From contig CALLYK010000548.1 of assembly GCA_937858365.1 (NCBI GenBank), positions 1-35,489 of the forward strand: a stretch of 35,489 bases of DNA. Reading direction: 5' to 3'. The translations under genes were made by a program, and so were the position numbers. The stretch's first letter is position 1; each line of letters opens with the position of its first letter. Positions 5,322 through 30,664 of this stretch are shown piece after piece. Source of the DNA: an uncultured Isosphaeraceae bacterium (GTDB lineage Bacteria > Planctomycetota > Planctomycetia > Isosphaerales > Isosphaeraceae). The notes under the pieces are model-generated. The model ran no database searches and was not told the DNA's origin. It saw nothing but the letters and a program-made list of their open reading frames with translations.

Positions 5322-5834
5322 CTAAAGCCAGACTTCCAACGCGCGCTTGCTCGCGGCATCAAGTTTCTGGATGTCGGGGATCAGGTAGCGGACCCCCTGG
5401 CCATCAACCAGCAAGGCGCGTCGCGGGCCGATCTGCCTCACGTCGTCGTCGCCGTTGATGATGATTTTCACGTCCCCACGATCCGTGCGCAGGTCCCATT
5501 CGGTCGGGTGGGACTCGCCGTGGACCTTGATGATCTTGGTGATCACCGGGATGAACTCGCGCCGGGCCAGGTCGGCCTCCAAGATCGAGCGCACGGGTTC
5601 GGCCAGGGAGGCCAGATCGTCGATGAGGAAGAGTTCTTTGCCGTCGGCGTCCAGGAGGGAGATGAAGCGAGACGGCTCGTTGACGGGAAAGGCCCGGACC
5701 GGTTCCACGCCGAGATGCCGGCGCCCTTCGGAATCGATCAAGACGAGGCGACCGAACTCATCATGTTTTAGGCCGAAACGCTGGTCCATCGCCGTCGGTC
5801 CTTCGCTCGCGGCCGAGGCCGCGGGTCCGTTCAT
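5322..5834 (-). CDS. DUF1854 family protein, cyanophycin-locus associated
   Basis: A soluble protein of 170 residues with the DUF1854 signature: DEFGRLVLIDSEGRRHLGV, then VRAFPVNEP, a central acidic LLDADGKELFLIDDL, and WDLRTDRGD near the C-terminal third. Its ATG overlaps the stop codon of the upstream ABC transporter gene (ATGA at 5834-5831), so the two are translationally coupled and probably work together. A second possible start is the Met at residue 16, but the overlap favours the first. From general knowledge, DUF1854 proteins occur next to this type of ABC transporter in cyanophycin gene clusters of other bacteria. The presence of three cphA-type genes in this window supports the same association here. 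Biochemical function is unknown. Confidence 0.85.
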   Translation of the reverse strand: MNGPAASAASEGPTAMDQRFGLKHDEFGRLVLIDSEGRRHLGVEPVRAFPVNEPSRFISLLDADGKELFLIDDLASLAEPVRSILEADLARREFIPVITKIIKVHGESHPTEWDLRTDRGDVKIIINGDDDVRQIGPRRALLVDGQGVRYLIPDIQKLDAASKRALEVWL

Positions 5835-8143
5835 TGCACGCCCGCGAGTTCCACCTGGGCCCGGTGGAGTCGGGCGTAAGCGCCCGGCTTTTTGAGGAGA
5901 TCCTGATGGTGGCCGATCTCGGCGAACTGGCCGCGTTCCATCACGACCAGGCGGTTGGCCCGACGAAGCGTGCTCAAACGGTGGGCGATCGCGATGGTCG
6001 TCCGGCCGCGGATGAGGTTGTCGAGGGCCTCTTGGATCTGCCGTTCGGTCTCGGTGTCGACGGCGCTGGTGGCCTCGTCCAGGATGAGGATGCGGGGGTC
6101 GATGAGGAGGGCCCGCGCGATCGAAATGCGCTGACGTTCGCCCCCCGAGAGCGACTGCCCGCGTTCGCCCACCATCGAATCGTACCCTTCGGGCAAACGC
6201 AGGATGAACTCATGCGCGCGGGCCGCCTTGGCCGCCTCAATGATCGCCTCGCGACTCGTGCCCGGGCGGCCGTAGGCGATGTTCTCGGCGATCGTGCCGT
6301 AGAAGAGGAACGGGTCCTGCAAAACGATGCCGATGTTCCGGCGATAGCCCTCCACCTCGTAGCGGCGAATGTCCACGCCGTCGACGAGGATGGCCCCTTC
6401 CTTGACGTCGAAGAAGCGGCAGATGAGGTTGATGAGCGTGCTCTTACCCGCTCCGCTCCGGCCGACCAAGCCGATCATCTCGCCCGGCTTGATCTTGAGG
6501 TTCAGCTTCTTGAGGATGGGCCGGCTGCCGTAACGGAAGGAGACGTCGCGGATTTCGATCTCGCCGCGAAGGCGGCCGGGTTGGACGGGGCGCGCCGGCT
6601 CGGGAACGCTGGGCACGCGGTCGAGGACCTCGAAGAGGCGTTGCGAACTGGCGGCGGCGCGTTGCACGGCCTGCACCATGCGGCTCATCGCCTCCATTCG
6701 GGCGTAAAAGCCGGTAATGAAACCGGTGGCGGCGAGCAGGCCGCCCGGCGTGAGGTGTCCCTGACCGATGCGCCAAATGCCCACGACCCAGACGATCAAG
6801 AGCCCCAGCGACGTGAGCAGACCAACCGCCGGCCCGAAGAAGGCCCAGGTCCAATTGACCTCGTCGTTGGCCTTGAGGATGCGCGCGTTCGTGGCCTCGA
6901 ACCGCTCGGTCTCACGACGCTCCTGCGCGAACGCCTTGACGACCCGGATGCCCGGGATCGTGTCGGCCAGCACGCTGACCATGTGGGCCCAGGCGCGATA
7001 GCTCCGGTCGAACCCGTGAAGCATGCGCTCGCGGGTCGCGTGGACGAGCCACCAGATGATCGGAAAGGGCAAGAGGGCCGCCACCATGATCGCCCAGTCC
7101 ATGTGCAGCAGAAAGGCGCACGTGAGGGCGATCATCAGGATGTCGTGGGTGAAGTCGAGGACGTTCACCGAAAGGAAATTGCAGAGGCGCTCGGTGTCGT
7201 CGCTGATGCGCGACATCAAGTCGCCTGTCCGCTTCCCGCCGAAGTACTCCAGCGACAGCTTTTGAAGGTGCGCGTAGGTCTTCTGCCTGAGCCCTGCGGA
7301 GATGCGTTCGCTGATCCAGGCCAAAACGTAGCTGCGCCACCAGGTCAGTAGCCAGGTGGCCACGGCCGCCAGGCCCAGTCCGCCCAGGAACAGACCCGCC
7401 AGACGAAACAAGGCGGCGCGAGCGGCCGGGTCGGTCGCCTTCTCCAAGGGTAAGAGCACCTGGTCGGTCAGGGGTTGCGTCAAATACGTGGGCAGCAAGC
7501 TGACCCAGGTCGCCAACAGGGTGAGGACAAAACCGCCCGCGAGGGCCGGCACCCACGGCCGCGAAAAGGCCCAAAGCCTCCAGAGGGAGGCGGTCGCCGG
7601 CGGGGCCGGCGGCGGGGCGCAAACCGGACACGTCGCCTCTTGCGGGGCCAACGCCGCGCCGCAGGTCGGACACGTCGCATCGCTGGCGGCGACAGGGGCC
7701 GGGGTCGGCACCGCCAAGGGTCCGTGCCCTTCCCCGTTCGACCGAATCGTCTCAAACTGCTCCACCAGCCGATGGACACTCGACGCCCGTCCGGCCGTGT
7801 AGCGCCAAGACGCCAGCAGTCCGTCGGTGCCGAGGGCCTCCAAGGTACCAACGCCCCATTGCTCACGGGCCTTCAGTCCGGCCAAGGTCGACAAGGGTAG
7901 TTCCACCCAGGCCGCGTGTTGGCCGTTGCCCTCGACGTGGCGCCCGGAGTCGGTCCCCAGCAGGCGGCGATCCGTCAGGACCACCAGCCCCGGCCCGAAG
8001 CGCATGGACCCACCCAGGTCGGTCTCGAACCAGGCCTGGATCGACTCCCCTGGCTGGAGCTTCGAGGCCGCGGCCCCACGCCACGATTCCGGCAACAACA
8101 CAAGTTCCTCGTCATGACGGTTCAATTTGGGTGGCTCCGGCAA
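5831..8143 (-). CDS. ABC exporter (membrane + ATPase) with PH-like and zinc-ribbon N-terminus, cyanophycin-locus type
   Basis: A protein of 770 residues. Residues 1-135 look like a PH/GRAM-like beta domain (VVLTDRRLLGTD near 54-65). A zinc ribbon follows (C158, C161, C172, C175), then six membrane segments of an exporter-type ABC domain (about 198-480) and an ATPase with Walker A GRSGAGKST, signature LSGGERQ and Walker B ILILDEATSAVD. It is a complete half-transporter expected to act as a dimer in the inner membrane. Start choice is uncertain: the frame opens with TTG at 8143, with no clear ribosome site. It overlaps the DUF1854 gene by four bases and diverges from the tandem cphA-like genes. 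The same transporter type accompanies cyanophycin synthetase elsewhere. The cargo is unknown; an isopeptide, an amino acid or a lipid are all possible. Confidence 0.88.
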   Translation of the reverse strand: MPEPPKLNRHDEELVLLPESWRGAAASKLQPGESIQAWFETDLGGSMRFGPGLVVLTDRRLLGTDSGRHVEGNGQHAAWVELPLSTLAGLKAREQWGVGTLEALGTDGLLASWRYTAGRASSVHRLVEQFETIRSNGEGHGPLAVPTPAPVAASDATCPTCGAALAPQEATCPVCAPPPAPPATASLWRLWAFSRPWVPALAGGFVLTLLATWVSLLPTYLTQPLTDQVLLPLEKATDPAARAALFRLAGLFLGGLGLAAVATWLLTWWRSYVLAWISERISAGLRQKTYAHLQKLSLEYFGGKRTGDLMSRISDDTERLCNFLSVNVLDFTHDILMIALTCAFLLHMDWAIMVAALLPFPIIWWLVHATRERMLHGFDRSYRAWAHMVSVLADTIPGIRVVKAFAQERRETERFEATNARILKANDEVNWTWAFFGPAVGLLTSLGLLIVWVVGIWRIGQGHLTPGGLLAATGFITGFYARMEAMSRMVQAVQRAAASSQRLFEVLDRVPSVPEPARPVQPGRLRGEIEIRDVSFRYGSRPILKKLNLKIKPGEMIGLVGRSGAGKSTLINLICRFFDVKEGAILVDGVDIRRYEVEGYRRNIGIVLQDPFLFYGTIAENIAYGRPGTSREAIIEAAKAARAHEFILRLPEGYDSMVGERGQSLSGGERQRISIARALLIDPRILILDEATSAVDTETERQIQEALDNLIRGRTTIAIAHRLSTLRRANRLVVMERGQFAEIGHHQDLLKKPGAYARLHRAQVELAGVQ

Positions 8144-8388
8144 ACGAGGAAGGAAGCAAGGACAGGACGAGACCGACGGGAGGTGGACCGCGCGAGGGAA
8201 GGCACCACCATTCTATACGCTGGCCAGGGCCGCAGGAACGAGCGCCCGCCCCCGCCGAGCCGTTCGCGGGCAGACGACCACTTCAAGCATCTGCGTTCTT
8301 GCGTCGGTGAGGGGACGTGGTTAGCGTGGTCCCATGCGCCGAGCTGACTGCGGCGCTCATCCCCGAACCGCATTCATGGGGTCGCGAC
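8144..8388. promoter_or_regulatory. Divergent intergenic region of the cyanophycin-type locus
   Basis: This region separates the minus-strand ABC transporter/DUF1854 pair from the plus-strand cphA-like pair, so promoters for both directions should lie here. A TAGAAT element on the minus strand (8218-8213, within tatagaat) is a possible -10 box, but no good -35 box is seen. No strong operator-like palindrome was found. The exact right edge depends on whether the first cphA-like gene starts at the GTG at 8317 or at 8389. Confidence 0.35.
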
Positions 8389-10257
8389 GTGGCGAGCATT
8401 GGGTCCATCCGGCGTCTGGAAGGGTCGCATCCGTGGGGGCGAAACCGGGCCATCGCGGCCGTCGTGAACGGCCTGCCCACTCGTCCGTTATCTTCTGACC
8501 AGGTGGGACCGTTGGTCGCGGCCTTGAACGCCCTTCATCTGCCACCCTATCTGAAAGGCGCGGGGGATCGCCTCCGGGAAGACCTCACCCCAGACGCTTC
8601 CGCGACCGACCTTCTCCTGGGCCTTGTACATGCTTTCCATTTCGTGACACGTGAGTTCTCAGGTGAGGCCCGGGCCGTGGCCTCGGAGACCGTTGTCATT
8701 GAGGCCGAGGAACACGCCTTCACCGAGGCTTGCCTGGAATCGGCCTTGCGTGTGCTCAAAGGGGCTTCGGACGTTGCCGCCGAGTTCGATCGTTTGGCGG
8801 ACCTGGAATGCGAAATCTGTTACGCGATGGCGTCGACCAAGGTCCTCGCGGCGGCCCGGGCGCGCGGGGTCCCCGTTTATCGCCTCGACGACGGCAGCCG
8901 CATGCAGCTCGGCGAAGGCCGCCTCCAGCAGCGAGTGGCCAAGGGTGTGACTTCGCGGACCGGTCACATCGCCGAGCAGATCGCCACGAACAAGGCGTAT
9001 GTGAAGACGCTCTGGGCGCGGGTCGGCGTGCCGATCGCCGACGGCCAAGCCGTGAACGACGCGCCCGAGGCCGTCGCCGTGGCCGAGCGGGTCGGTTGGC
9101 CGGTCGTCATCAAGCCGGCCGACTCCGACTGGGGCCTCGGCGTCTCAATGCGCCTGGCCGACGCCGACCAGGTCCAAGCGGCCTACCGGCGCGCTCGCGA
9201 GTACTCCGAAAGCGTGCTGGTCGAGCGTCATCTGGAAGGGGCCTGGCATCGTCTCCTCATCATCGACGATCGCCTCGTGGCGGCCCTCCGCCGAGACCCG
9301 GCGACCGTGACGGGCGACGGCACAAGCGCGATCGCGCGCCTCGTCGAGCGGGCCAATGAGGACGAGCGTCGCGGGCCGGATTCTCGCTGGCCGCTCCGCC
9401 TCATGGAACTGGGCGACTTGGAGCGGGAGTACCTCGGCCGGATGGGGATGGGCCCCGAGACCGTGCTGGAAGCGGGTCGACAAGTCGTGCTCCGGCCGAT
9501 CGCCCACACCGATTCCGGTTCGATCAGCACCGAAGTCAGCGACCTCGTGCATCCATCGACGGTCCATCTCGCGCGCGACGCCGTGAAAGTCGTCGGTCTG
9601 GACATCGCGGGCCTCGACGTGATCGCCCAGGACATCTCCCGGCCGCTCGCCGAACAAGGGGGCGGCTTCCTCGAAATCAACCCCTATCCCGCGCTCTTCC
9701 TTCATCTGGAACCGATCTGCGACCGCCCCCGACCGGTGGGCGAGGCGATCGTCGCGTCGCTTTTTCCGGGCACGTCCAACGGTCGTGTGCCACTCTTCGT
9801 AGTCATGGGAGAGGACCCGGCGCGGGCCTTGGTCGCCCCCCTGGCTGACTCCCTCCGCGAACAGGGCGTCCAGGTCGCGACGTCGACCGCCTTCGAGACC
9901 TTCCTGGGTGACCAACGCCTGAGACCGACCGGCCCGACGCCGGCCGATCGTCTCGCCGCGATGATGTTTCACCCCAGGACCGAGGCGGCCGTGCTCGCCC
10001 TCAGCCCGGCCGAGTTCTTCGCCCACGGCCTGGGAACGGACCAGTGCGCCGTCCTTCTGATGGTCGGACCTTTCGAGTCTCAACATCTCGCCGCGTTGGC
10101 CCACCTGCCAGGTTCAGCGCGTCGCGTCGTCGTCGCGAGTGACGACCATTTTTGGGACGAAACACTTGACCCCGCGCGCGTTGTTCGGGCCGACGATTGG
10201 GTCGTCGGGGCGCTCAAGGGGTTGGATCGGGATTGCAGTTCGCCCAAGACTTCATAG
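8389..10257 (+). CDS. Cyanophycin synthetase-like ATP-grasp protein with degenerate, truncated Mur-ligase region (paralogue 1)
   Basis: From the GTG at 8389 the product has 622 residues, close to the 618 of the next gene, and begins like it (SIRRLEGSHPW). A GTG at 8317 would add 24 residues. Residues 1-200 match the CphA N domain but lack its HxxEH motif. Residues about 200-460 are the ATP-grasp domain: K242 (VVIKP), D410, E429 and N431 are retained, so nucleotide and metal binding look possible. The CphA loop RRNANLSTGG is replaced by RPIAHTDSGS, and NAGPG by NPYPA. Residues 464-560 align with the start of the CphA Mur-ligase domain (GRVP, then HPRTEAAV for HPFVEAAV). The P-loop GVNGKTTT has become GEDPARAL, and the rest of the ligase is missing. 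It probably forms amide bonds by ATP-grasp chemistry alone or modulates the full-length CphA. Confidence 0.85.
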   Translation: MASIGSIRRLEGSHPWGRNRAIAAVVNGLPTRPLSSDQVGPLVAALNALHLPPYLKGAGDRLREDLTPDASATDLLLGLVHAFHFVTREFSGEARAVASETVVIEAEEHAFTEACLESALRVLKGASDVAAEFDRLADLECEICYAMASTKVLAAARARGVPVYRLDDGSRMQLGEGRLQQRVAKGVTSRTGHIAEQIATNKAYVKTLWARVGVPIADGQAVNDAPEAVAVAERVGWPVVIKPADSDWGLGVSMRLADADQVQAAYRRAREYSESVLVERHLEGAWHRLLIIDDRLVAALRRDPATVTGDGTSAIARLVERANEDERRGPDSRWPLRLMELGDLEREYLGRMGMGPETVLEAGRQVVLRPIAHTDSGSISTEVSDLVHPSTVHLARDAVKVVGLDIAGLDVIAQDISRPLAEQGGGFLEINPYPALFLHLEPICDRPRPVGEAIVASLFPGTSNGRVPLFVVMGEDPARALVAPLADSLREQGVQVATSTAFETFLGDQRLRPTGPTPADRLAAMMFHPRTEAAVLALSPAEFFAHGLGTDQCAVLLMVGPFESQHLAALAHLPGSARRVVVASDDHFWDETLDPARVVRADDWVVGALKGLDRDCSSPKTS

Positions 10258-10265
10258 GTTTCCCC

Positions 10266-12122
10266 ATGCGCGTAGTATCCCTCCGACGACTCGAAGGGGT
10301 AAGCCCTTGGTCGTCCCGTCGGACCTTGGCCGCGACCCTGACGGACATGCCCGCCGGCGAGGTCCCGGCGCCGGCCGTCGCCACCTTGATCAACGCCCTC
10401 GGAAAACTCACGGTCCCGATCGCCTTGAAGGGCCCGGATGAGCGCCTTCGCGCAGACCTTTCGCGCGACGCCTCCTGGCCGGCCCTCCTCGCGGCCCTCG
10501 TGAGGGAATGGCAATTCCTCACGCGCGAATTTCGGGGCGAGGCCTTCGTATCGTCACGACCGCGAGGAAACCAAGTCACGCTGGCGTTCGAGTGCGAGGA
10601 GTTCGCCCTGGCGGAGCCTTGCCTGCGGAGCGCTTTGGAGGTCGCGGGAGAACTGATCTCCGGTCGGCCGATCGACCTGGGCCCACTGGTCGATCGGCTC
10701 TCCGAGATCGCGTATGACGTCTGTTTCGGCGGCCAAAACACGGCCATCGCCGACGCCGCGCGAGCGCGTGGCGTCCCCTGCCGTCGGGTCATGGGGGACG
10801 GCCTGGTCCAAATCGGTGAAGGCGTCCACCTCAAGCGGTTCTCGGCCGGGACCACGAGCCGAACCGACCACTTGGCCGTCGGCCTTTCCACCAACAAGGC
10901 CAATATCCGGGAGCTTTGGTCGGGGATCGGCGTGCCGATCGCGGAAGGCCGCCTCGTACGCGACGCCGACGACGCGGTCCGCGCCGCCGAAGCGATCCGT
11001 CCGCCCATCGCCGTGAAACCGGCCGACTCCGACTACGGCCGAGGCGTCACGCTCGACCTGACAACGAGCGACCAGGTGCGAGCCGCCTATCACGAGGCCC
11101 TCGCCTATTCGTCAAGCGGCGGCGTGCTGGTCGAGCGTTCTCTGAAGGGCCTCTGGCACCGCTTGCTCGTGGTGGAAGATCGACTCGTCGCGGCCCTGCG
11201 TCGGGAACCGGCGACGGTCGTCGGCAACGGGAAAAGCACCATCGCCGAACTCGTCGTCGAGGCCAACCGCGACCCCAGACGCGGCCCCGATTCTCGTTGG
11301 CCCTTGTATCAGATGGAACTAGGCGACGCCGAACGCGTCCACCTGGCCCGCTTCGGCCGAACGTTCGAGAGTGTCCCGGAGGAAGGAGAGCGCGTCGCCT
11401 TGCGCGCAATCGCCCACACCGAGACAGGCGCGACCAGCCGCGACGTGCTCGACATCGTGCATCCCGATACGATCGCCTTGGCGTTGGATGCCGTGCGTGT
11501 CGTCGGCCTCGACGTGGCGGGGCTCGACGTGATCGCCGAGGACCTCTCGCGTCCGCTCCACGAGCAAGGTGGCGGCTTCCTGGAAATCAACGCGGGACCC
11601 GCTTTGTTCCTGCACTTCGAGCCGATCTCCGACCCGCCGCGTCCAGTGGCCGAGGCGATCGTGGACGCGCTCATGCCGCCGCCAAGTACGGGACGAGTGC
11701 CGCTCATCCTGATGATCGGTCGCGAACGTGCCGACGCGCTGGCGATCCAGGCCGTCGCGATCTTGGAACGACTCGGCAAACGCGCGGCCATTTCGACCGG
11801 CGAGGGGACGATGTGCGGGACGAGGCGATTGCACCCGCGAGAAGCGACCCCGCCGGGACGGCTCCACGCGATGATGACCTTTCCTCGGACCGAAGCGGCG
11901 GTCCTGGCGGCGTCGATGCGTGACCTTCTGGAATGGGGCCCAGGGACCGACCGCGCCCACCTGTTGGTCCTTGCCGACCTCGATGAACCGGAAGACGAAA
12001 GCGAATGGCGAGCCTGGTTCGAGAATATGCGCACCGGGACGCCCCTGGTCTGGTCGGCCGAGGACGGCGACCCCCAGGCCCTCGAAACGCTGATCGAGCG
12101 GGCCATCGCGGCGTCCCCTTGA
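10266..12122 (+). CDS. Cyanophycin synthetase-like ATP-grasp protein with degenerate, truncated Mur-ligase region (paralogue 2)
   Basis: From the ATG at 10266 the product has 618 residues; an upstream start at 10197 would overlap the previous gene. Only 8 bases separate the two, so they are an operon. It is a tandem duplicate: N domain without HxxEH, then ATP-grasp with K251 (IAVKP), D421, E440 and N442 retained. It keeps NAGPA, closer to CphA than paralogue 1. The substrate loop reads RAIAHTETGA where CphA has RRNANLSTGG. After residue 475 it again shows GRVP and FPRTEAAV, but MIGRERADAL replaces the P-loop, and the chain ends about 140 residues into the Mur-ligase region. Intact frames and selective loss of the same elements in both copies argue against pseudogenes. 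They may act as a pair, each with its own substrate. The gene is convergent with the APC permease. Confidence 0.85.
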   Translation: MRVVSLRRLEGVSPWSSRRTLAATLTDMPAGEVPAPAVATLINALGKLTVPIALKGPDERLRADLSRDASWPALLAALVREWQFLTREFRGEAFVSSRPRGNQVTLAFECEEFALAEPCLRSALEVAGELISGRPIDLGPLVDRLSEIAYDVCFGGQNTAIADAARARGVPCRRVMGDGLVQIGEGVHLKRFSAGTTSRTDHLAVGLSTNKANIRELWSGIGVPIAEGRLVRDADDAVRAAEAIRPPIAVKPADSDYGRGVTLDLTTSDQVRAAYHEALAYSSSGGVLVERSLKGLWHRLLVVEDRLVAALRREPATVVGNGKSTIAELVVEANRDPRRGPDSRWPLYQMELGDAERVHLARFGRTFESVPEEGERVALRAIAHTETGATSRDVLDIVHPDTIALALDAVRVVGLDVAGLDVIAEDLSRPLHEQGGGFLEINAGPALFLHFEPISDPPRPVAEAIVDALMPPPSTGRVPLILMIGRERADALAIQAVAILERLGKRAAISTGEGTMCGTRRLHPREATPPGRLHAMMTFPRTEAAVLAASMRDLLEWGPGTDRAHLLVLADLDEPEDESEWRAWFENMRTGTPLVWSAEDGDPQALETLIERAIAASP

Positions 12123-16143: not shown

Positions 16144-18840
16144 ATGGACATCCGTAAGGTCCTGGAACTCCGCGGTCCGAACATCTGGGCCCGGTTCCCC
16201 GTGCTGGAGGCCTGGGTCGATCTCGGCGGCCTCAAAGACACCGCCTCGAACGAAGTACCCGGCTTCAACGACCGCCTCATGGCCTGGTTGCCCACGATGA
16301 TCGAACACCGCTGTAGCGTCGGCGAACGCGGCGGCTTCTTCGAGCGACTCCGACGCGGGACCTATCCCGCCCACATCCTGGAACATGTTTGCTTGGAGTT
16401 GCAGTCCCTCGCGGGGACCCCCGTCGGCTTCGGCAAGGCCCGAGAGACCCACGAGGAAGGCGTTTACAAGGTCGTCGTTCGCTACAAGGAAGAAGCCCTC
16501 GGCCGCGCCGCCCTCGAAACGGCCAAGGCCCTTCTCCTGGCCGCCATCCACGACCAGCCTTTCGACGTGGCCGACGAGGTCCGCAAGCTCCGCGATCTGG
16601 CCCACGAGGTCTGCCTGGGACCAAGCACCGCCGCCATCGTCGAGGCCGCCCAGAAGCGCAACGTCCCCTTCAAACGCCTCAATGAGGGCAGCTTGATCCA
16701 ACTCGGGTGGGGATGGAAGCAGCGCCGGATTTGGACGGCCGAGACCAGCCGGACTTCCGCCATCGCCGAAGGGATCGCCCAGGACAAGGAACTGACGAGG
16801 CGCCTTCTGGCGGCGATCGGCGTGCCGGTCCCCGAAGGTCGGGCCGTGACCGACGCGGACGACGCCTGGGCCGCCGCCGAGGAGATTGAAGGTCCGGTGG
16901 TCGTCAAGCCGCAATACGGTAATCAAGGCCGAGGCGTGGCCACGAACCTAACGACCCGGGAACAGGTCGTCGCCGCATACGAAGCGGCCAAGGAGCACGG
17001 GTCCTCGATCGTCGTGGAGCGGTACGCGCCGGGGGACGACCATCGCATCCTCATCGTCGGCGGCAAGCTCGTGGCGGCGGCCAAGCGCGAGCCGGCACAA
17101 GTGATCGGCGACGGCGTCCGTACGGTCGGCGAGCTCGTCGCCGAGGTGAACAAGGACCCGCGCCGGAGCGACGGCCACTCCACCGTCTTGAGCCACATCA
17201 AGATCGACGCGATCGCGCTGGGCGTCTTGGCCGAACAGGGGCTCACGCCCGATTCGGTCCCGGCGTTCGATCGCAAGGTCCTGATCCGCCGGAACGCGAA
17301 CCTGAGCACGGGCGGCACAGCGATCGACGTGACCGACAAGGTCCATCCCGATGTGGTCGCGCGGGCCGTCGAAGCGGCGCGGATGGTGGGCCTGGACATC
17401 GCCGGTGTGGACCTCGTCTGCCAGGACATCAGCCGGCCGATCGAACCCCAGGGGGGCGCGATCGTCGAGGTGAACGCCGGGCCGGGCCTGCGGATGCACA
17501 TCGAACCCTCGGAAGGCCAACCTCGCCCCGTCGGCGAGGCGATCATCGATATGCTCTTCCCGCCTGGTGACGACGGCCGGGTCCCGGTCGTCGCCGTCAC
17601 CGGCGTGAACGGCAAGACGACCACGACTCGGTTGATCGCCCACCTCATCAAGGGCGCTGGGCTGAAGGTGGGCGTCACGCTGACCGACGGCATCTACATC
17701 GGCGACCGCCGGATCGATAACGGCGATTGCAGCGGCCCCCTGAGCGCCCAGACCGTGCTGATGCACCCGTTCGTCGAGGCGGCCGTGTGCGAGACGGCCC
17801 GAGGCGGCATCCTCCGCGCGGGTTTGGGCTTCGACGCCTGCGACGTCTCCGTCGTCACCAACATCGGCGAAGGGGACCACCTGGGCATCAACGACGTCGA
17901 GACGGTCGAGGAACTCGCGGCGGTGAAGGAGACGATTGTTTACGCGACCGCCCCGACCGGCACGGCCGTCCTCAAGGCCGACGACCCCCTGGTCGCCGGC
18001 ATGGCCCGCTGGGCACGCGGCAAGATCACGTTCTTCAGCCGCGACCCCGAGTTCCCGTTGATTCAGGAGCACCGAGCGGCCGGCGGTCGCGCCGTGATCG
18101 TCCGCGAGAACGCGGTCGTCCTGGCCGAAGGGGCCGACGAGACCTGCCTGATCAACCTGGCCGAGGTCCCCCTCACGTTCAACGGCCGGATCGGCTTCCA
18201 AGTCGAAAACGTGCTGGCGGCCGTCGGCGCCGCGTGGGCCCTGGACCTGGGCCACGAAACGATCCGCTCGGGCCTAGAGACGTTCACGAGTGAGCCCCAT
18301 CAGGTGCCCGGCCGCTTCAACGTCTTCGAGACCCGCGGCGCCACCGTGATCGTGGATTACAGTCACAACCCGTCGGCCGTGATCGCCCTGATCGAGGCCC
18401 TGGAGCACTTCCCGAACCCGCACCGGACGATCGCGTTCAGCGCGGCCGGCGACCGCCGCGATTGCGACATCGTCCGCCAGGGAGAATTGCTCGGCGGCGC
18501 TTTCGACCACGTGATCGTCTTCGAGGACTGCAATCGGGGCCGTCCCGAAGGCGAGGTGATGTCCCTCCTGAAGCAAGGGGCCGAACGAGGCCGACGCGCC
18601 AGCGCGATCACGGCGACCCCAGGCAACGAGCGTGAAACGATCGAATTGGCCCTGAGCGGCCTTCGACCGGGCCACTTGCTCGTGCTTCAACCCGACGACA
18701 TCGAAGCGACCGTCGCCTTCGTGAAGTCATGGCTCCTGGAACAGAGACCGACCCCGGAAAGGCCGCCCGCGGGGACCGTCGAATACGTAGCGGTCTCGGC
18801 GAGCGTGTCCGAGGTCATGCCCACGACCATCCTCGATTGA
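16144..18840 (+). CDS. cphA: Cyanophycin synthetase
   Basis: CphA makes multi-L-arginyl-poly-L-aspartate from Asp, Arg and ATP. The ATG at 16144 gives 898 residues beginning MDIRKVLELRGPN, the standard CphA opening; an upstream GTG at 15988 would add 52 non-homologous residues. The N domain (1-160) carries H77xxE80H81 in AHILEHVCLEL. ATP-grasp domain (about 205-470): K255 (VVVKP), RRNANLSTGG (382-391), D423, E442 and N444 with NAGPG. Mur-ligase domain (about 478-870): P-loop GVNGKTTT (487-494), ETARGGILRAGL (550-561), GEGDHLG, DYSHNP (738-743) and GDRRDCD (769-775). In the family, the ATP-grasp site extends the aspartate backbone and the Mur site attaches arginine to the side chain. All sites look intact. 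No cyanophycinase lies nearby. Confidence 0.96.
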   Translation: MDIRKVLELRGPNIWARFPVLEAWVDLGGLKDTASNEVPGFNDRLMAWLPTMIEHRCSVGERGGFFERLRRGTYPAHILEHVCLELQSLAGTPVGFGKARETHEEGVYKVVVRYKEEALGRAALETAKALLLAAIHDQPFDVADEVRKLRDLAHEVCLGPSTAAIVEAAQKRNVPFKRLNEGSLIQLGWGWKQRRIWTAETSRTSAIAEGIAQDKELTRRLLAAIGVPVPEGRAVTDADDAWAAAEEIEGPVVVKPQYGNQGRGVATNLTTREQVVAAYEAAKEHGSSIVVERYAPGDDHRILIVGGKLVAAAKREPAQVIGDGVRTVGELVAEVNKDPRRSDGHSTVLSHIKIDAIALGVLAEQGLTPDSVPAFDRKVLIRRNANLSTGGTAIDVTDKVHPDVVARAVEAARMVGLDIAGVDLVCQDISRPIEPQGGAIVEVNAGPGLRMHIEPSEGQPRPVGEAIIDMLFPPGDDGRVPVVAVTGVNGKTTTTRLIAHLIKGAGLKVGVTLTDGIYIGDRRIDNGDCSGPLSAQTVLMHPFVEAAVCETARGGILRAGLGFDACDVSVVTNIGEGDHLGINDVETVEELAAVKETIVYATAPTGTAVLKADDPLVAGMARWARGKITFFSRDPEFPLIQEHRAAGGRAVIVRENAVVLAEGADETCLINLAEVPLTFNGRIGFQVENVLAAVGAAWALDLGHETIRSGLETFTSEPHQVPGRFNVFETRGATVIVDYSHNPSAVIALIEALEHFPNPHRTIAFSAAGDRRDCDIVRQGELLGGAFDHVIVFEDCNRGRPEGEVMSLLKQGAERGRRASAITATPGNERETIELALSGLRPGHLLVLQPDDIEATVAFVKSWLLEQRPTPERPPAGTVEYVAVSASVSEVMPTTILD

Positions 18841-22173: not shown

Positions 22174-23079
22174 TCAGGGACCGACCTCCGGTCCCGACTT
22201 CGTCGTCATCGCGGCGGTCGGGTCGTCATCCCAATCAAGACCGGGGACCGCCGATTCCGTTTCGCGGGCCTCCTGGTAGTAGAGGAACCCCGACACGATC
22301 AGGGGGATGGCCAAGACCTCCGCCCAGAGGCCCCCGACCAGCATCCGGACCGGGCCTTCCGGCAAGGGAAGGCCCGCGATCAGGACCTGCCCGCTCAGGG
22401 CGAGGAGGAAGAGAAGGGCCCGCGTGCCCAAGAAGGCCCACTCCCGACGGCGCATCAGGCGCCGGCTCCGGGCCCGCGCCTCGGTCGGCCCGGCCCCCTC
22501 GAGGACCACCACGGGCGCGACCAGGGCCAGCCGAAGCGCATGGATGATCCCCGGCACGACCAGCATCAGCAGACCCAGCAGAATGACCATGCCGGCGAGG
22601 AAGAGACTGCTCCAAAGGCGGCCCCAACAGCGAAGGCCCACCGACATCGCCTCGGCGTATCCGGCCGGCCGGCCGGCCGCCGATTGGGCCAGGACCCAGA
22701 TCGTGGCCGCGGTCGCGATCGGGCCGAAAATCCCCTGAAAGAGCGATTGGACCTGGAGGGCCATCTCGAACCGGCGTTCTTCCGCAACACTCTCGGTCGC
22801 CAGGATGACCGCCAGGACCAGGGGCAAGCCGATCGTCCATGTCACCAGGGTCAGTAAGGGGAGGTTTCGGGCCGTGATTACCAGGGCCTGACCGGCCTTA
22901 CCCGTCCAGGTCGGCTCGACGACCAGGACCTCGGAGGGAAGTGTTGGCCCGAAGGCGCTCGATGCGGGGGCCTCGTAAGGGTTTTCGTCGCGCGTCCGGG
23001 GCCCGAGGGTCGCGCCGCAGTAGCGGCATGGTCCTTCTTCGTCGTTCAACAAGGCGCGACACTGAGTGCAGCTTCGCAT
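22174..23079 (-). CDS. Zinc-ribbon membrane protein of unknown function
   Basis: A protein of 301 residues. The N-terminus is a zinc ribbon (CTQC at 4-7 and CRYC at 18-21), followed by a short linker and about six hydrophobic segments between residues 65 and 275. The pattern of a long membrane region with GLLMLVVPGIIHALRLALVAPVVVLEG resembles DUF975 / glycerophosphodiester phosphodiesterase membrane-domain proteins, often found as integral membrane proteins without a defined reaction. It starts 24 bases after the ilvC stop on the same strand, so it may be the last gene of that operon. Confidence 0.65.
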   Translation of the reverse strand: MRSCTQCRALLNDEEGPCRYCGATLGPRTRDENPYEAPASSAFGPTLPSEVLVVEPTWTGKAGQALVITARNLPLLTLVTWTIGLPLVLAVILATESVAEERRFEMALQVQSLFQGIFGPIATAATIWVLAQSAAGRPAGYAEAMSVGLRCWGRLWSSLFLAGMVILLGLLMLVVPGIIHALRLALVAPVVVLEGAGPTEARARSRRLMRRREWAFLGTRALLFLLALSGQVLIAGLPLPEGPVRMLVGGLWAEVLAIPLIVSGFLYYQEARETESAVPGLDWDDDPTAAMTTKSGPEVGP

Positions 23080-23103
23080 CGGCTGGGCCCTCCGCGTCTC
23101 CCA

Positions 23104-24108
23104 CTACACCACCTTGGCGTCGATCCAGGTCATGAGCGATCGCAGGCGCTTGCCGACCTCTTCCACGGGGTGTTGACGCTCGCGGCGCCTCGTGGCGAGG
23201 AAGCCCGGCTTGCCCGCCTTGTTCTCCAAGACCCATTCGCGCGCGAATTGGCCGGTCTGGATCTCGAGGAGGATACGCTTCATCTCGGCGCGGGTCTGCT
23301 CGTTGATGATGCGCGGGCCCCTGGTGTAGTCGCCGTATTCGGCCGTGTTCGAGATGCTGTAGCGCATATAATTGAGACCGCCTTGATACATCAAGTCGAC
23401 GATGAGCTTGAGTTCGTGCAGGCACTCGAAGTACGCGCTTTCGGGCTGATAACCCGCTTCGACGAGGGTCTCGAAGCCCATCTTCACCAGGGCGCTGATG
23501 CCGCCGCAGAGCACGACTTGCTCGCCGAAAAGGTCGGTCTCGGTCTCTTCGGCGAAAGTCGTCTGCAAGACGCCGCCGCGCGTGCCGCCGATCCCTTTGG
23601 CGTAAGCGAGGGCCAGTTTCTTGCCGGGTTCGGAGCAGTTGTCGCTCGTGGCGATCAAGCAAGGGACGCCGCCGCCACGGACGAACTCGCTGCGGACGAG
23701 GTGTCCGGGTCCCTTGGGGGCCACCAGGGCCGCATCGACGCCCGGAGGGGCCTCGATCTGGCCGAAGTGGATATTGAAGCCGTGAGAAACGAGGAGCAGA
23801 TTACCCGGCTTGAGGTGGGGCTTGATGTCGGCCTTGTAGATGTCGGCGGCCACTTCGTCGGGCAAGAGGACATTGATGAGGTCTCCCGCCTCGGCCGCCG
23901 CGGCGGCCGAGACCGGGCTGAAACCGTCCTTCACGGCCGCGTCGTGATTGGCCGAGCCGGGCCGCTGACCCACCACCACGTTCAGCCCGGAATCCCGCAG
24001 GTTCTGCGCCTGGGCATGACCCTGGCTCCCATAACCGATGATGGCGATCGTCTTGCCTTTGAGGAGGCTGAGGTCGGCGTCGTGCTCATAGAACATCGTG
24101 GCGGCCAT
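23104..24108 (-). CDS. ilvC: Ketol-acid reductoisomerase
   Basis: IlvC converts acetolactate or acetohydroxybutyrate to the dihydroxy acids of valine, isoleucine and leucine synthesis, using NAD(P)H and Mg2+. The product has 334 residues, the length of class I enzymes. [17 protein letters not shown] near residue 25 is the nucleotide-binding motif. [28 protein letters not shown] (metal-binding acidic residues) and [33 protein letters not shown] are all present. The ATG at 24108 is preceded by GGAGAG. It follows the FkbM methyltransferase by 51 bases, with ilvN before that. The large acetolactate synthase subunit (ilvB) is not in this window. Confidence 0.97.
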
Positions 24109-24159
24109 GAGGGGCTTCTCTCCGAAGGTTGATGACGATGTCGAGCGGGACCCGTTCGA

Positions 24160-24960
24160 TCAAGCGGCAGACCGAGGTCCCGGCGCGGCGAGGAAGTTGA
24201 ACGCGGCGACGAGTCCCGAATCGTCGGGTGTCGTCGCGGCCTGGAAGGCGGCCCGGTCGAGTGGTCCCCGACCTTCGAGCCAGTCCTGAAGGAGAAATAC
24301 GTCGAGCCCGCAATCGTCGTGAAGGACCCGGTGGACCTGCTCGGCCGTCGTCTCATAGAGCTGAAACGAAGCGGCCACGCATTCGAAGAGCACGAACGGA
24401 CGCGACGTCCCCAAGAGCCGGGTCGCCCCTTGAAAGACGCCGAGTTCGGCCCCTTCCACGTCCACTTTGACGAAGCGAATGGGGCGGTCGGCCGGCACGA
24501 TGTCGTCCAATCGGGCGACCTGGACATGCAATTCGACGGCCGTCTCGTTCGCGGTGGAGGTCCGCGATCGGAGGCCGCTATACCCGGAGCGTCGCGGCAT
24601 GAAGCTGAAGGTTGCCTCACTCGGGGCCGGGCCCAGCGCGAGTTCGTGGACCTCCACACCAGGGAACTTCCGGCGCAGCCAACGGGCCTTGTGGGGGACC
24701 GGCTCGACGGCGACATGTCGGCCCCGAGGCGCCAGGCGTCGGAAATCGGCGAGGAAGGAACCAAGGTGTCCGCCGACATCGACGCAGTTATCGTCGGGCC
24801 GGAGCACGAGGGGGAGCAAGCGGTCGATCCGCTCTTCCTCCGCCGCGGCGAGGCGTTCCGCGGGCCACTTCCGGGGCTTGAGCCAACTCGCCAAGCGGCG
24901 GGCCGGGCCTTGAAGGGGCGTCCCGATCAACGAGCTTTTCAGCCGCTCTTTCAACGACAT
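24160..24960 (-). CDS. FkbM family methyltransferase
   Basis: From the ATG at 24960 the product has 266 residues; a longer frame to 25071 would overlap ilvN. CVDVGGHLGSFLADF is the SAM-binding motif I, HVAVEPVPHKARWLRRKFPG is motif II, and IRFVKVDVEGAELGVFQGA is the FkbM family motif (KIDVEGxE). Members O-methylate sugars or small molecules. The target here is unknown. It sits between ilvN and ilvC with short gaps (58 and 51 bases), which is unusual because its chemistry has no place in branched-chain amino acid synthesis. Confidence 0.85.
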   Translation of the reverse strand: MSLKERLKSSLIGTPLQGPARRLASWLKPRKWPAERLAAAEEERIDRLLPLVLRPDDNCVDVGGHLGSFLADFRRLAPRGRHVAVEPVPHKARWLRRKFPGVEVHELALGPAPSEATFSFMPRRSGYSGLRSRTSTANETAVELHVQVARLDDIVPADRPIRFVKVDVEGAELGVFQGATRLLGTSRPFVLFECVAASFQLYETTAEQVHRVLHDDCGLDVFLLQDWLEGRGPLDRAAFQAATTPDDSGLVAAFNFLAAPGPRSAA

Positions 24961-25018
24961 GATCGGGGGGCCCACCGTATCGCGCGGACCACGGCGAAGA
25001 GGCTTGAGGGATCGGGAC

Positions 25019-25612
25019 TCACAGGTTGGAATGCCCCACGACGACCCCTTCCGTGTCTTCGAGGTCGGCATCGTTTTCCTTGGCGCGACCGCTTCGGACC
25101 AGGGCGATCCGACCTGTTCGGGCTAGCTCCGAGATGCCGAATGGGCGCATCAATTCGATGAACGCCTCGATCTTCTTCTCCTGGCCGCTGATCTCGATCA
25201 TGAGCTGGTCTTGTCCCACGTCGACGATCCGGGCCCGGAAGACCTGCACCAATTGAATGATCTCGGCGCGACGGGCGGGCGGGGCGCCCACCTTCACAAG
25301 CATCAGGTCCCGTTCGACGAAGTCTTCCTTGGAGATGTCGATCACGCGGACGACCGTGACGAGCTTCTCCAGTTGCTTGCGGACCTGCTCCAAGACCCGG
25401 TCGTCGCCCCGGACGACGAACGTGATCCGCGAGAGGTGCGGGTCCTCGGTCTCACCCACGGCGAGGCTATCGATGTTGAACCCGCGCGAGGCGAGCATCC
25501 CGGAGACGTGGGCCAAGACACCGGGCGTGTTCTGCACGAGCGCGGAAAGGACGTGCCGCAGACGTTTCGGCTTACCCGCGGCCTCCTGATTCAACGGGTC
25601 GTTGGCCCCCAT
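25019..25612 (-). CDS. ilvN: Acetolactate synthase small (regulatory) subunit
   Basis: From the ATG at 25612 the product has 197 residues. The frame stays open far upstream (to 26602), antisense to the deacetylase gene, but only the last 197 residues match the family. LRHVLSALVQNTPGVLAHVSGMLASRGFNIDSLAVGETEDP is the ACT domain that binds valine. SKEDFVERDLMLVKV and EIIQLVQVFRARIVDVGQDQLMIEISG form the second half. It regulates and activates the catalytic subunit IlvB, which is not in the window. Downstream on the same strand are the FkbM methyltransferase and ilvC. The symbol ilvH would be equally valid. Confidence 0.93.
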   Translation of the reverse strand: MGANDPLNQEAAGKPKRLRHVLSALVQNTPGVLAHVSGMLASRGFNIDSLAVGETEDPHLSRITFVVRGDDRVLEQVRKQLEKLVTVVRVIDISKEDFVERDLMLVKVGAPPARRAEIIQLVQVFRARIVDVGQDQLMIEISGQEKKIEAFIELMRPFGISELARTGRIALVRSGRAKENDADLEDTEGVVVGHSNL

Positions 25613-25795
25613 CGCAAGCGACACTCCCCATGTCAACGGATCAGATACGAAGTCGTGAATGTAAGCGAAAGAAGGCCCGATCGGCAAGGCACGCCGCGCG
25701 ATTGTCTCGGGAGAATGGCCGGTGCCTCCGTCCATCGCTAGAATCTCCGCCTGACGATCGAACGTGTTGGTCCCGTCCCCGATCGCGGAGGAGCC

Positions 25796-26740
25796 ATGTC
25801 GTGCCCGCCCACCATCGTGCTCAGTTTCGACGTGGAAGAGCACCATCGGATCGAGGCGGCCACGGGTCTGACGATCGACAACTCGACCAAGGCCAACTAT
25901 GCACGCCGCGTCGCGCCGACCACCCATTGGCTGCTCGAACAACTCGCGGCGAAGGGCCTTCGGGCCACTTTTTTCTTCGTCGGCGAGCTGGCCCGAAGTG
26001 AGCCGTCTCTGGTGAAGGAGATGCATCGGGCCGGCCATGAGGTCGCTGGCCACGGCTGGGACCACCGCCGCATCCTGGAGATGACCCCCGACGAGTTCCG
26101 AGAAGACCTGCGCCGGACCGTCGGAACCTTGAGCGACCTGATCGGCGCGCCGGTCGTAGGTTATCGCGCGCCGACGTTCAGCCTGGTCCGGCGGACGGCC
26201 TGGGCAGTGGACGTGCTCGCGGAGGCCGGGCTTCGCTACGATTCGTCGATCTACCCCGTTTCCCATGATCGTTACGGCGTGGTCGACGCCCCTCGGTCCC
26301 CCTTTCGGGTCCGAGGTCCTGAGCGGTCGATCCTGGAATTGCCGCCGGCCTTGCTGCAACTTCCGGGGGACCGGAGGCTCCCGGCCGGAGGTGGCGGCTA
26401 TTTCCGACTCTTTCCGCTCGCTGTCGTCCGCGCCGCGATCCGACAATCCCTTGGGCAAGGCCAGGCCCCCGTGGCCATACTCTATTTCCATCCCTGGGAG
26501 TTCGACCCGGACCAGCCGCGTCTGCCCCTGCGTCCCTTGAGCCGGGCGCGAACCTACGTGGGGACCGGGAAGACCCGAGAGCGTCTGGGACGCCTGCTTC
26601 AAAGTGAGTTCCAGGCGACCTACCGGACGGCGGCCGAGGTCGCGGGGATGCTGGAAGAATTCGGGGGACTGGCCGAGTTCGCCCTGGTCGACCCGGCGGC
26701 GCCGAAGGGCCCTGGGCGGGAATGGTCTTCTCCCCGTTGA
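25796..26740 (+). CDS. Polysaccharide deacetylase (NodB homology domain, DUF3473 type)
   Basis: A protein of 314 residues, with ATG 25796 directly after GGAGGAGCC. LSFDVEEHH (about 9-17) holds the catalytic Asp-Asp/Glu region of NodB motif 1, HEVAGHGWDHRR is the motif 2 histidine set, and GYRAPTFSL is motif 3. YDSSIYPVSHDRYG and the C-terminal YFHPWEFDPDQPR are characteristic of the deacetylases seen in exosortase/PEP-CTERM polysaccharide loci. It probably removes N-acetyl groups from an exopolysaccharide. No signal peptide is visible, which fits that subgroup. No other exopolysaccharide genes are next to it. It diverges from ilvN. Confidence 0.9.
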   Translation: MSCPPTIVLSFDVEEHHRIEAATGLTIDNSTKANYARRVAPTTHWLLEQLAAKGLRATFFFVGELARSEPSLVKEMHRAGHEVAGHGWDHRRILEMTPDEFREDLRRTVGTLSDLIGAPVVGYRAPTFSLVRRTAWAVDVLAEAGLRYDSSIYPVSHDRYGVVDAPRSPFRVRGPERSILELPPALLQLPGDRRLPAGGGGYFRLFPLAVVRAAIRQSLGQGQAPVAILYFHPWEFDPDQPRLPLRPLSRARTYVGTGKTRERLGRLLQSEFQATYRTAAEVAGMLEEFGGLAEFALVDPAAPKGPGREWSSPR

Positions 26741-26766
26741 TTTCCCCGACCGGCAGTCTTTATCAT
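26737..26766 (+). promoter_or_regulatory. Candidate sigma70-type promoter for the ABC/GldFG operon
   Basis: TTGATT (26737-26742) and TATCAT (26761-26766) are separated by 18 bases, matching the -35 and -10 consensus at 4 and 5 of 6 positions. The -35 box overlaps the stop codon of the deacetylase gene. A start near 26773 would give a leader of about 140 bases. That leader contains the palindrome CCCCGGCCGGGG at 26810-26821. Confidence 0.35.
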
Positions 26767-26915
26767 AAGGACCTCACCACGGGACGACCGCGGCCCCCTC
26801 GCCGCTCGGCCCCGGCCGGGGTGGAGACACTTGGCCCGGCCCGCGGAAGTTCGCGTCGCACTCTGGCGCCCCTGAGCGTCTTCGGTCCTTGTTCTCTTTA
26901 GGGATGACAGTCGGC

Positions 26916-27644
26916 ATGTCGAACCCATTGATGATCGAGGCCATCGGCCTGAGCAAGACCTTCGGGTCCTTCCTGGCGGTCCGTGACGTCACCTTCCAGG
27001 TCCCCAAGGGGCAAGTGGTCGCCTTCCTCGGCCCCAACGGCGCGGGGAAGACCACCACCATGCGCCTTCTGACCGGCTTCCTCGCCCCCACGAAGGGGAC
27101 CGCCCGGATCGCTGGCATCGACGTGCAAAACGACCGGATCGCCGCCGCCGAACACCTGGGCTATCTGCCCGAGAACGGGCCGCTTTACGCCGACATGTCG
27201 CCGGTGGACCTCCTCAAGTTCTTCGGCACTGTCCGCGGCATGGAAGGCGCCGAACTCTCCGGCCGGATCGACGAGGTCGTCTCCCTGTGCTCGCTGGGAC
27301 AGGTCGCTTACAAGGCGATCGGCAAGCTCTCGAAGGGCTATCGCCAGCGAGTCGCCATGGCCCAGGCCCTGCTTCACGACCCCGAAGTGCTCATCATGGA
27401 CGAACCGACCAGCGGCCTCGACCCCAACCAGATCAAGGGGGTCCGCCAACTGATCCGCCACCTGGGCGAATCGAAGACGATCATGGTCTCGACCCATATC
27501 CTTCAGGAAGTGGACCCTGTCGCCGACCGCGTCTTGTTCATCCACGACGGCAAACTCGTCTTCGATGGACCACCCAGGGATTTCGCCGCCGACGCCAAGG
27601 GGATGGAAGAACGCTTCCATAGCCTGACGTCCCAGCCCGTTTGA
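26916..27644 (+). CDS. ABC transporter ATP-binding protein (GldA-like)
   Basis: A protein of 242 residues from ATG 26916; ATG 26904 is equally possible. Walker A is GPNGAGKTTT, followed by the Q-loop substitute YLPENGPLY, signature LSKGYRQRVAMAQALLHDP, Walker B VLIMDEPTSGLDP and the switch histidine in VSTHIL. The YLPENxPLY segment is typical of the GldA/NosF-like ATPases that partner with ABC-2 permeases. The following genes encode that permease fused to a GldG domain and a DUF4340 protein. The three should form one membrane complex. In Bacteroidota the Gld ABC proteins affect gliding; in planctomycetes the role is unknown. Confidence 0.92.
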   Translation: MSNPLMIEAIGLSKTFGSFLAVRDVTFQVPKGQVVAFLGPNGAGKTTTMRLLTGFLAPTKGTARIAGIDVQNDRIAAAEHLGYLPENGPLYADMSPVDLLKFFGTVRGMEGAELSGRIDEVVSLCSLGQVAYKAIGKLSKGYRQRVAMAQALLHDPEVLIMDEPTSGLDPNQIKGVRQLIRHLGESKTIMVSTHILQEVDPVADRVLFIHDGKLVFDGPPRDFAADAKGMEERFHSLTSQPV

Positions 27645-27703
27645 TTGGATCGCGTCTCTTCGCGGATTGACCCACCGATTCGGACTTCCGAGGACCTCGA
27701 ACG

Positions 27704-30604: not shown

Positions 30605-30664
30605 TGACATGTAGGCCGCTCGACAAGAGACCCATCAACACAACTTGCTGTGAGATCGCCGGAG

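Follow-up and report, generated by a model that had tools for sequence, protein, structure and literature searches.

What do two relatives of cyanophycin synthetase (CphA) make when they stand beside a canonical copy of the enzyme, but have lost most of the residues that hold aspartate? The question is raised by the first 35,489 nucleotides of contig CALLYK010000548.1 (assembly GCA_937858365.1, forward strand; hereafter the window), which stem from an uncultured bacterium of the Isosphaeraceae and encode two such paralogues, here called P1 and P2. Both retain every ATP- and Mg-binding residue checked in their ATP-grasp (G) domain, while the site that receives the incoming amino acid is rebuilt. 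We tentatively read them as active ATP-grasp ligases whose partner would be something other than aspartate or beta-Asp-Arg. The features on which this reading draws are as follows.

8389..10257, plus strand: P1, CphA-like, with an N-like part, the G domain and a truncated, dead M part; GTG start; PRK14016 395.6 bits
9250..9252, plus strand: R288 of P1, equivalent to Arg309 (acceptor carboxylate), kept
9292..9294, plus strand: R302 of P1, equivalent to Arg323, kept
9493..9522, plus strand: omega-loop of P1, RPIAHTDSGS; H373 = N394 and D375 = S396 of TeCphA1
9679..9693, plus strand: NPYPA in P1 (NAGPG in CphA); Asn452 kept, Gly456 (oxyanion) replaced by Ala
9697..9699, plus strand: F437 of P1, replacing Arg458 (clamp of the aspartate alpha-carboxylate)
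10266..12122, plus strand: P2, the second CphA-like protein; ATG start; PRK14016 414.2 bits
11160..11162, plus strand: R299 of P2, equivalent to Arg309 (acceptor carboxylate), kept
11202..11204, plus strand: R313 of P2, equivalent to Arg323, kept
11403..11432, plus strand: omega-loop of P2, RAIAHTETGA; H384 = N394 and E386 = S396 of TeCphA1
11607..11609, plus strand: F448 of P2, replacing Arg458
16144..18840, plus strand: canonical CphA1, which has Walker A, Arg458, the NLSTGG loop and the N-domain motif
17287-17316: RRNANLSTGG loop of the window CphA1

The aspartate pocket and the ATP site of P1 and P2

Residue numbers of TeCphA1, placed on the window through the PDB alignment of its CphA1 to 7wac, are used throughout. 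According to PMC9427784, Asn394 (loop 389-399) lies 2.5 Å from the beta-carboxylate of the incoming aspartate in TeCphA1 with ATPgammaS, primer and aspartate; Arg323 contacts the same carboxylate, Ser396 lines the space occupied by the amino acid and Arg458 holds its alpha-carboxylate. Alanine at position 394, 323 or 458 impairs TeCphA1, and tryptophan at 396 abolishes the activity of SuCphA1 (PMC9427784). Among these four contacts, P1 and P2 retain R323 alone. Both carry N394H and R458F, combined with S396D and G399S in P1 and with S396E and G399A in P2; Thr397 is altered in P1 only, position 267 is W in P1 and Y in P2, and NAGPA in P2 means that G456A is common to both paralogues.

By contrast, the residues for ATP chemistry are preserved. 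Lys220, Lys261, Asp431 and Glu450 bind ATP and Mg in TeCphA1, Arg309 holds the acceptor carboxylate, and Gly456 together with Arg309 has been proposed to stabilize the tetrahedral intermediate (PMC9427784); K220, K261, R309, D431, E450 and N452 are all kept in P1 and P2. A preliminary description of this DNA, made from the letters alone, had already listed K242, D410, E429 and N431 of P1 and K251, D421, E440 and N442 of P2 as conserved and had reported the two loop sequences against RRNANLSTGG as well as NPYPA in P1. All of these residues were confirmed, so that chance or misreading was rejected as an explanation. It had overlooked R458F in both paralogues and the dead, shortened Mur-ligase part, a build resembling that of CphA2.

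The same description placed the change near the acceptor site. In the TeCphA1 structure, the loop indeed lies in the active site, with Asn394 and Ser396 of TeCphA1 at the aspartate (PMC9427784), but it meets the incoming amino acid, whereas the acceptor residue Arg309 is kept. By analogy, the loop of P1 and P2 is probably part of the incoming-amine site and not of the acceptor-chain site, because the loop residues of TeCphA1 contact the incoming aspartate. Its suggestion of a different acceptor or amino acid fares similarly: the incoming-substrate site is rebuilt, but the loop alone is insufficient as an argument, given that GshF shares Asn394, Ser396 and Thr397. Judged from the sequences, R458F would be a better sign than the loop change that free aspartate is not the partner, and the loop change would show that something more general has been rebuilt.

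The AlphaFold2 models point to well-folded proteins, with a mean predicted local distance difference test score (pLDDT) of 88.9 and a predicted TM-score (pTM) of 0.86 for P2 (86 for the loop block 381-390) and values of 83.9 and 0.83 for P1, whose tail (584-622) is poor. The P2 model superimposes on TeCphA1 bound to ATPgammaS, primer and aspartate (7wae) over 605 residues (Z 32.6, root-mean-square deviation (rmsd) 3.9), aligning with residues 1-709 only, and on Gloeothece CphA2 (7ta5) over 559 residues (Z 28.1, rmsd 3.5). In the M part, the Walker A motif is lost in both proteins (MGEDPARAL in P1, IGRERADAL in P2), and neither matches the Pfam families Mur_ligase or Mur_ligase_C. The primer-cutting motif of the N domain, CX19HXXEH, was looked for and is absent from both. 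Each stays under the curated cut-offs for cyanophycin synthetase, with PRK14016 (NCBIfam; cut-off 877) giving the scores listed above and TIGR02068 (cut-off 850) reaching 319.6 bits for P1 and 335.5 for P2.

The two genes are separated by 8 bases and likely form one operon; P1 has an alternative upstream GTG at 8317, from which the frame is also open. Their products are 50-52% identical, with a synonymous divergence (dS) of 1.17, a non-synonymous divergence (dN) of 0.49 and a dN/dS of 0.42, as estimated with a simple count method on GC-rich genes. Plain decay, against which the preliminary description had spoken, is indeed unlikely, with the ATP site intact, models that fold well and a dN/dS of about 0.42.

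Pocket classes and descent of CphA-like proteins

For comparison, 245 CphA-like reading frames were gathered, 99 from the window and further Planctomycetota stretches, picked after searching 45 genomes of the order, 392 of a phylum sample and 397 of a class sample, and 146 from 80 further loci, the best 80 of at least 469 relatives. Removal of 20 frames (13 duplicates and 7 whose G domain was short or missing) left 225 rows. Classes were set by the pocket itself, canonical meaning that R323, N394, S396, T397 and R458 occur together: 112 rows are canonical, 96 lack part of the loop (loop-deleted) and 17, including P1 and P2, are full-loop variants. An earlier scan of named genomes with P2 as the sole query had returned zero relatives, and viral contigs yielded five distant ATP-grasp matches.

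K220, K261, R309, D431 and E450 are invariant in all 225 rows and N452 is found in 224; within the variants, the first five occur in 17/17 and N452 in 16/17. To judge from these alignments, it is the aspartate pocket that changes across CphA-like proteins and not the ATP site. Histidine occupies position 394 in 8 of the 17 variants and arginine position 458 in only two. The M domain has an intact Walker A motif in 110/112 canonical, 55/96 loop-deleted and 5/17 variant rows. An acidic residue at 396 or 397 accompanies all eight His394 variants, as opposed to one of the nine others (p 0.0004); counted by lineage, the association is 4/4 against 1/7 (p 0.015), both comparisons being post hoc.

A tree of 60 rows chosen from the 225, with the loop and columns 267, 323 and 458 removed and no CphA2 sequence included, places the 17 variants on one side of a branch (support 98/93), with P1 and P2 as sisters (100/98) and a gene from a Schlesneria metagenome-assembled genome (L139 = L183) as their nearest relative. 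A quick tree of 93 rows, built before it, gives the same picture. A recent local duplication of the window CphA1 was rejected as the origin of P1 and P2, since holding the three together gives a p value of 3.5e-6 in the approximately unbiased test. On this sequence evidence, the group of CphA relatives that includes P1 and P2 (17/225 rows; Planctomycetota and Verrucomicrobiota) appears to be old and separate; its pockets are changed and its ATP sites intact.

The genome that contributed the window (85% complete, 591 contigs) holds four CphA-like genes: P1, P2, the canonical CphA1 and one on another contig, C284 (L103:9047-11830). This fourth gene is kin of the variant group and combines a PPFIESGG loop with R323I, W458 and an intact Walker A motif. 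Elsewhere, at L078:7974-12545 and at L187:3282-7941, neighboring genes complement each other: one has a full G domain and a degenerate Walker A motif, while in its neighbor the G domain is broken or partial and the Walker A motif intact; here the work of G and M seems to be split over two proteins.

What P1 and P2 may ligate

If P1 and P2 are active, they would be CphA-type amide ligases relying on the G domain alone. A C-terminal carboxylate, probably that of a cyanophycin-like chain, would be converted to an acyl phosphate and then attacked by an amine other than free L-aspartate. This partner is likely neutral or basic, because Phe replaces the alpha-carboxylate clamp and His plus an acid replace Asn and Ser; polyamines, basic amino acids and small neutral ones are examples. 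In this way the chain of the adjoining CphA1 would be terminated, decorated or lengthened, perhaps for the linked exporter. In favor of this reading stand the invariance of the ATP, Mg and acceptor residues, the role of the altered positions as aspartate contacts in TeCphA1, the likeness to the glycine ligase GshF at 267 and 458, the match of the P2 model to TeCphA1, the branch that sets the variants apart, the pairing of His394 with an acid and the linkage to the ABC and DUF1854 genes. A bolder version, which we consider distinctly doubtful, sees an unrecognized third line of CphA relatives in Planctomycetota and Verrucomicrobiota, in which a His-plus-acid loop, replacing Asn-Leu-Ser, would select a non-aspartate block for building or capping a cyanophycin-like chain destined for ABC export, yielding an exported, non-storage cousin of cyanophycin.

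Several observations weigh against a partner other than aspartate. Within the survey, the AHT[DE] loop is confined to P1 and P2, occurring in no other row or genome searched, and such a pattern fits relaxed constraint as well; the loops of the nearest relatives read FITSGG, SRIGAGG, PQACYAE and SCEWQGD. His394 is shared by 8/17 rows of the group and thus not confined to P1 and P2, while the nearest relative has FITSGG, so that the loop is not one conserved new motif; a conserved loop motif specific to P1 and P2 was rejected because the relatives differ. Moreover, GshF, which ligates glycine, has Asn394, Ser396, Thr397 and Arg323 but lacks Arg458, and NAGGN synthetase has an NLHTGG loop with Ala at 458. 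Because GshF, a glycine ligase, possesses them, Asn394 and Ser396 do not look aspartate-specific, whereas Arg458 does, as far as these sequences indicate; the loop was rejected as sole proof of an amino-acid switch, as GshF shares N-x-S-T-G-G. Loss of Asn394, Ser396 and Thr397 could instead harm catalysis in general. The identity of the amine is drawn from missing contacts, and the dN/dS of about 0.42 signifies moderate purifying selection only, at a dS near saturation. Finally, when GshF, NAGGN synthetase, a Microvirga CapA fusion and Deinococcus CphA are added to the tree, the variants form one clade in 35% of the bootstraps, so that their unity is weak once GshF and NAGGN synthetase are present; in the same tree, the canonical class is split and the NAGGN row does not group with GshF.

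Three other explanations have to be set against this background. P1 and P2 may resemble CphA2 in adding ready-made beta-Asp-Arg, or a similar dipeptide, to the chain; with ready-made dipeptides joined, the arginine-adding M part would therefore be dead and the pocket for free aspartate opened. Their build is that of CphA2 (M P-loop, M lid and N-domain motif gone), the P2 model matches Gloeothece CphA2 7ta5, and a canonical CphA1 lies 4 kb away in a genome that also holds cyanophycinase-like pieces. Yet both proteins are nearer in sequence to CphA1 than to CphA2, the cyanophycinase pieces are partial and below cut-off (115 and 47 bits), and a dipeptide still bears the alpha-carboxylate of aspartate although Arg458 has become Phe. 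We regard this possibility as rather unlikely, if worth keeping in mind. The free variation of the relatives' loops on a fold that holds, the loss of two of three active sites, the moderate dN/dS and the failure to reach any CphA family cut-off could alternatively reflect pseudoenzymes or regulatory partners that bind ATP and cyanophycin, assemble with CphA1 and ligate nothing, with the unused loop left to drift. This explanation, which we hold to be unlikely, sits uneasily with the invariance of K220, K261, R309, D431 and E450 in all 17 variants and of N452 in 16, and with the altered-pocket relatives L084/L085, L087/L089 and L103, whose retention of Walker A in M suggests working enzymes.

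That P1 and P2 still ligate aspartate in a remodeled pocket, in which His394 would take over the beta-carboxylate contact of Asn394 and Arg323 would do the rest, appears very improbable. Histidine could act as a hydrogen-bond donor to a carboxylate, and Arg323 and Arg309 are kept in both P1 and P2; however, Asp or Glu at 396 adds a negative charge and Phe at 458 removes a positive one where a dicarboxylate would have to fit, and N394A and R458A impair TeCphA1 (PMC9427784). Should the reading of the pocket as one for a different partner be true, non-ribosomal polyamide synthesis by CphA-type enzymes would be wider than cyanophycin, and the few changed positions, whose places are known from a structure containing all the substrates, would offer a direct handle on what sets the backbone amino acid. 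In addition, loci in which a changed and a canonical CphA adjoin an ABC exporter and DUF1854 recur widely.

Genomic context and comparison with known systems

Two genes lie directly upstream of P1 in divergent orientation.

5322..5834, minus strand: DUF1854 protein, cyanophycin metabolism-associated; PF08909; NF052234 (171.5 bits, cut-off of 150 passed)
5834..8143, minus strand: ATP-binding cassette (ABC) transporter of the exporter type, cyanophycin metabolism-associated; Pfam ABC_membrane and ABC_tran; NF052233 (1061 bits, cut-off of 880 passed)

Among 45 genomes of the order, CphA-like and DUF1854 genes occur together in 15, CphA alone in one, DUF1854 alone in one and neither in 28 (Fisher 7e-10). 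Genome G011 carries an ABC and a DUF1854 gene over cut-off (contig C2, near 4,958,000-4,960,800), with no CphA-like gene found in the genome. In 50 of the 80 further loci, a non-random sample drawn by similarity, the ABC gene and DUF1854 accompany both a loop-deleted and a canonical CphA, and a study of activated sludge describes clusters with two cphA copies and an ABC transporter (PMC10687191). P1 and P2 occupy the place held elsewhere by the changed CphA, but they come from a different branch and are without the N-domain motif of that CphA. No paper testing the function of loci that combine changed CphA, canonical CphA, ABC exporter and DUF1854 was found, nor any on DUF1854, which had zero matches in the plasmid collection, or on paralogues of the P1/P2 type, in a literature searched mostly without subscription journals.

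Between the ABC gene and the window cphA lie P1, P2, an amino-acid permease and an HGSNAT-like gene. The Isosphaeraceae cphA locus looks syntenic: within 22858-32218 of the window, the genes for ketol-acid reductoisomerase and the acetolactate synthase small subunit are near cphA in other Isosphaeraceae loci too, and the later genes are so in fewer of them. The P1/P2 relatives L139, L144, L145 and L146 stand beside an extracytoplasmic function (ECF) or other sigma factor and a Ser/Thr kinase, not ABC or DUF1854 genes, the neighbors of L139 being placed only by similarity to L144 and L145. The shared neighbors of these relatives gave no clue to the substrate.

Of the known systems, CphA1 (TeCphA1 7wac-7waf; SuCphA1 7lg5, 7lgn, 7lgm) is the best match by sequence for P1 as well as P2 (for P2, 249 bits versus 167 for CphA2 in phmmer), with which they share the fold, the ATP, Mg and acceptor residues and R323. 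They differ from it at the aspartate contacts N394, S396 and R458, in the dead and shortened M site, in lacking CX19HXXEH and in falling under the curated CphA cut-offs. CphA2 (Gloeothece 7ta5, Stanieria 8fxh/8fxi) is likewise devoid of the M P-loop, the M lid and the N-domain motif, whose absence is described as a CphA2 trait in PMC9262961; its chains of 629 and 642 residues compare with 618-622 in P1 and P2, and its loop is of full length, judging by match lengths only. The G domain alone is active in CphA2, and P1 and P2 would share this build; unlike them, CphA2 is cyanobacterial.

GshF (gshAB), which is discussed alongside CphA in section 11 of PMC9427784, has in common with P1 and P2 the ATP-grasp G domain, an aromatic residue at 267 (Y/F; W/Y in P1/P2) and a residue other than arginine at 458 (Y/H; F in P1/P2). 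It retains an N-[VI]-S-T-G-G loop in place of HTDSGS/HTETGA, however, has another N-terminal half and is distant in the tree, and the gshAB model matches P1 and P2 over the ATP-grasp half only. A CphA-like ATP-grasp domain is also found in a CapA-family protein encoded on a Microvirga ossetica plasmid (L272:4515-7529), with a NISQGG loop, Ser at 458 and type I secretion genes nearby.

In Betaproteobacteria and Planctomycetota, tandem cphA pairs include a loop-deleted CphA that resembles P1 and P2 in having an altered aspartate pocket beside a canonical CphA and the same ABC and DUF1854 genes. It differs in a five-residue deletion of the loop, in R323G and mostly R458L, in an N-domain motif that is mostly present and in its separate branch. 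Among the 96 loop-deleted rows, R323G occurs in 94 and R458L in 75, the ATP site is intact, and the Walker A motif of M is also lost in 41 (e.g., L195:5644-8259 and L075:10315-13053); some copies are still scored as cyanophycin synthetase by NCBI models. Where a loop-deleted and a canonical CphA share a locus (e.g., L195, L236 and L074), CX19HXXEH is found in the loop-deleted and not in the canonical copy in 74 of 75 cases, and in neither in the remaining one. In these tandem pairs, the arrangement looks like a division of labor.

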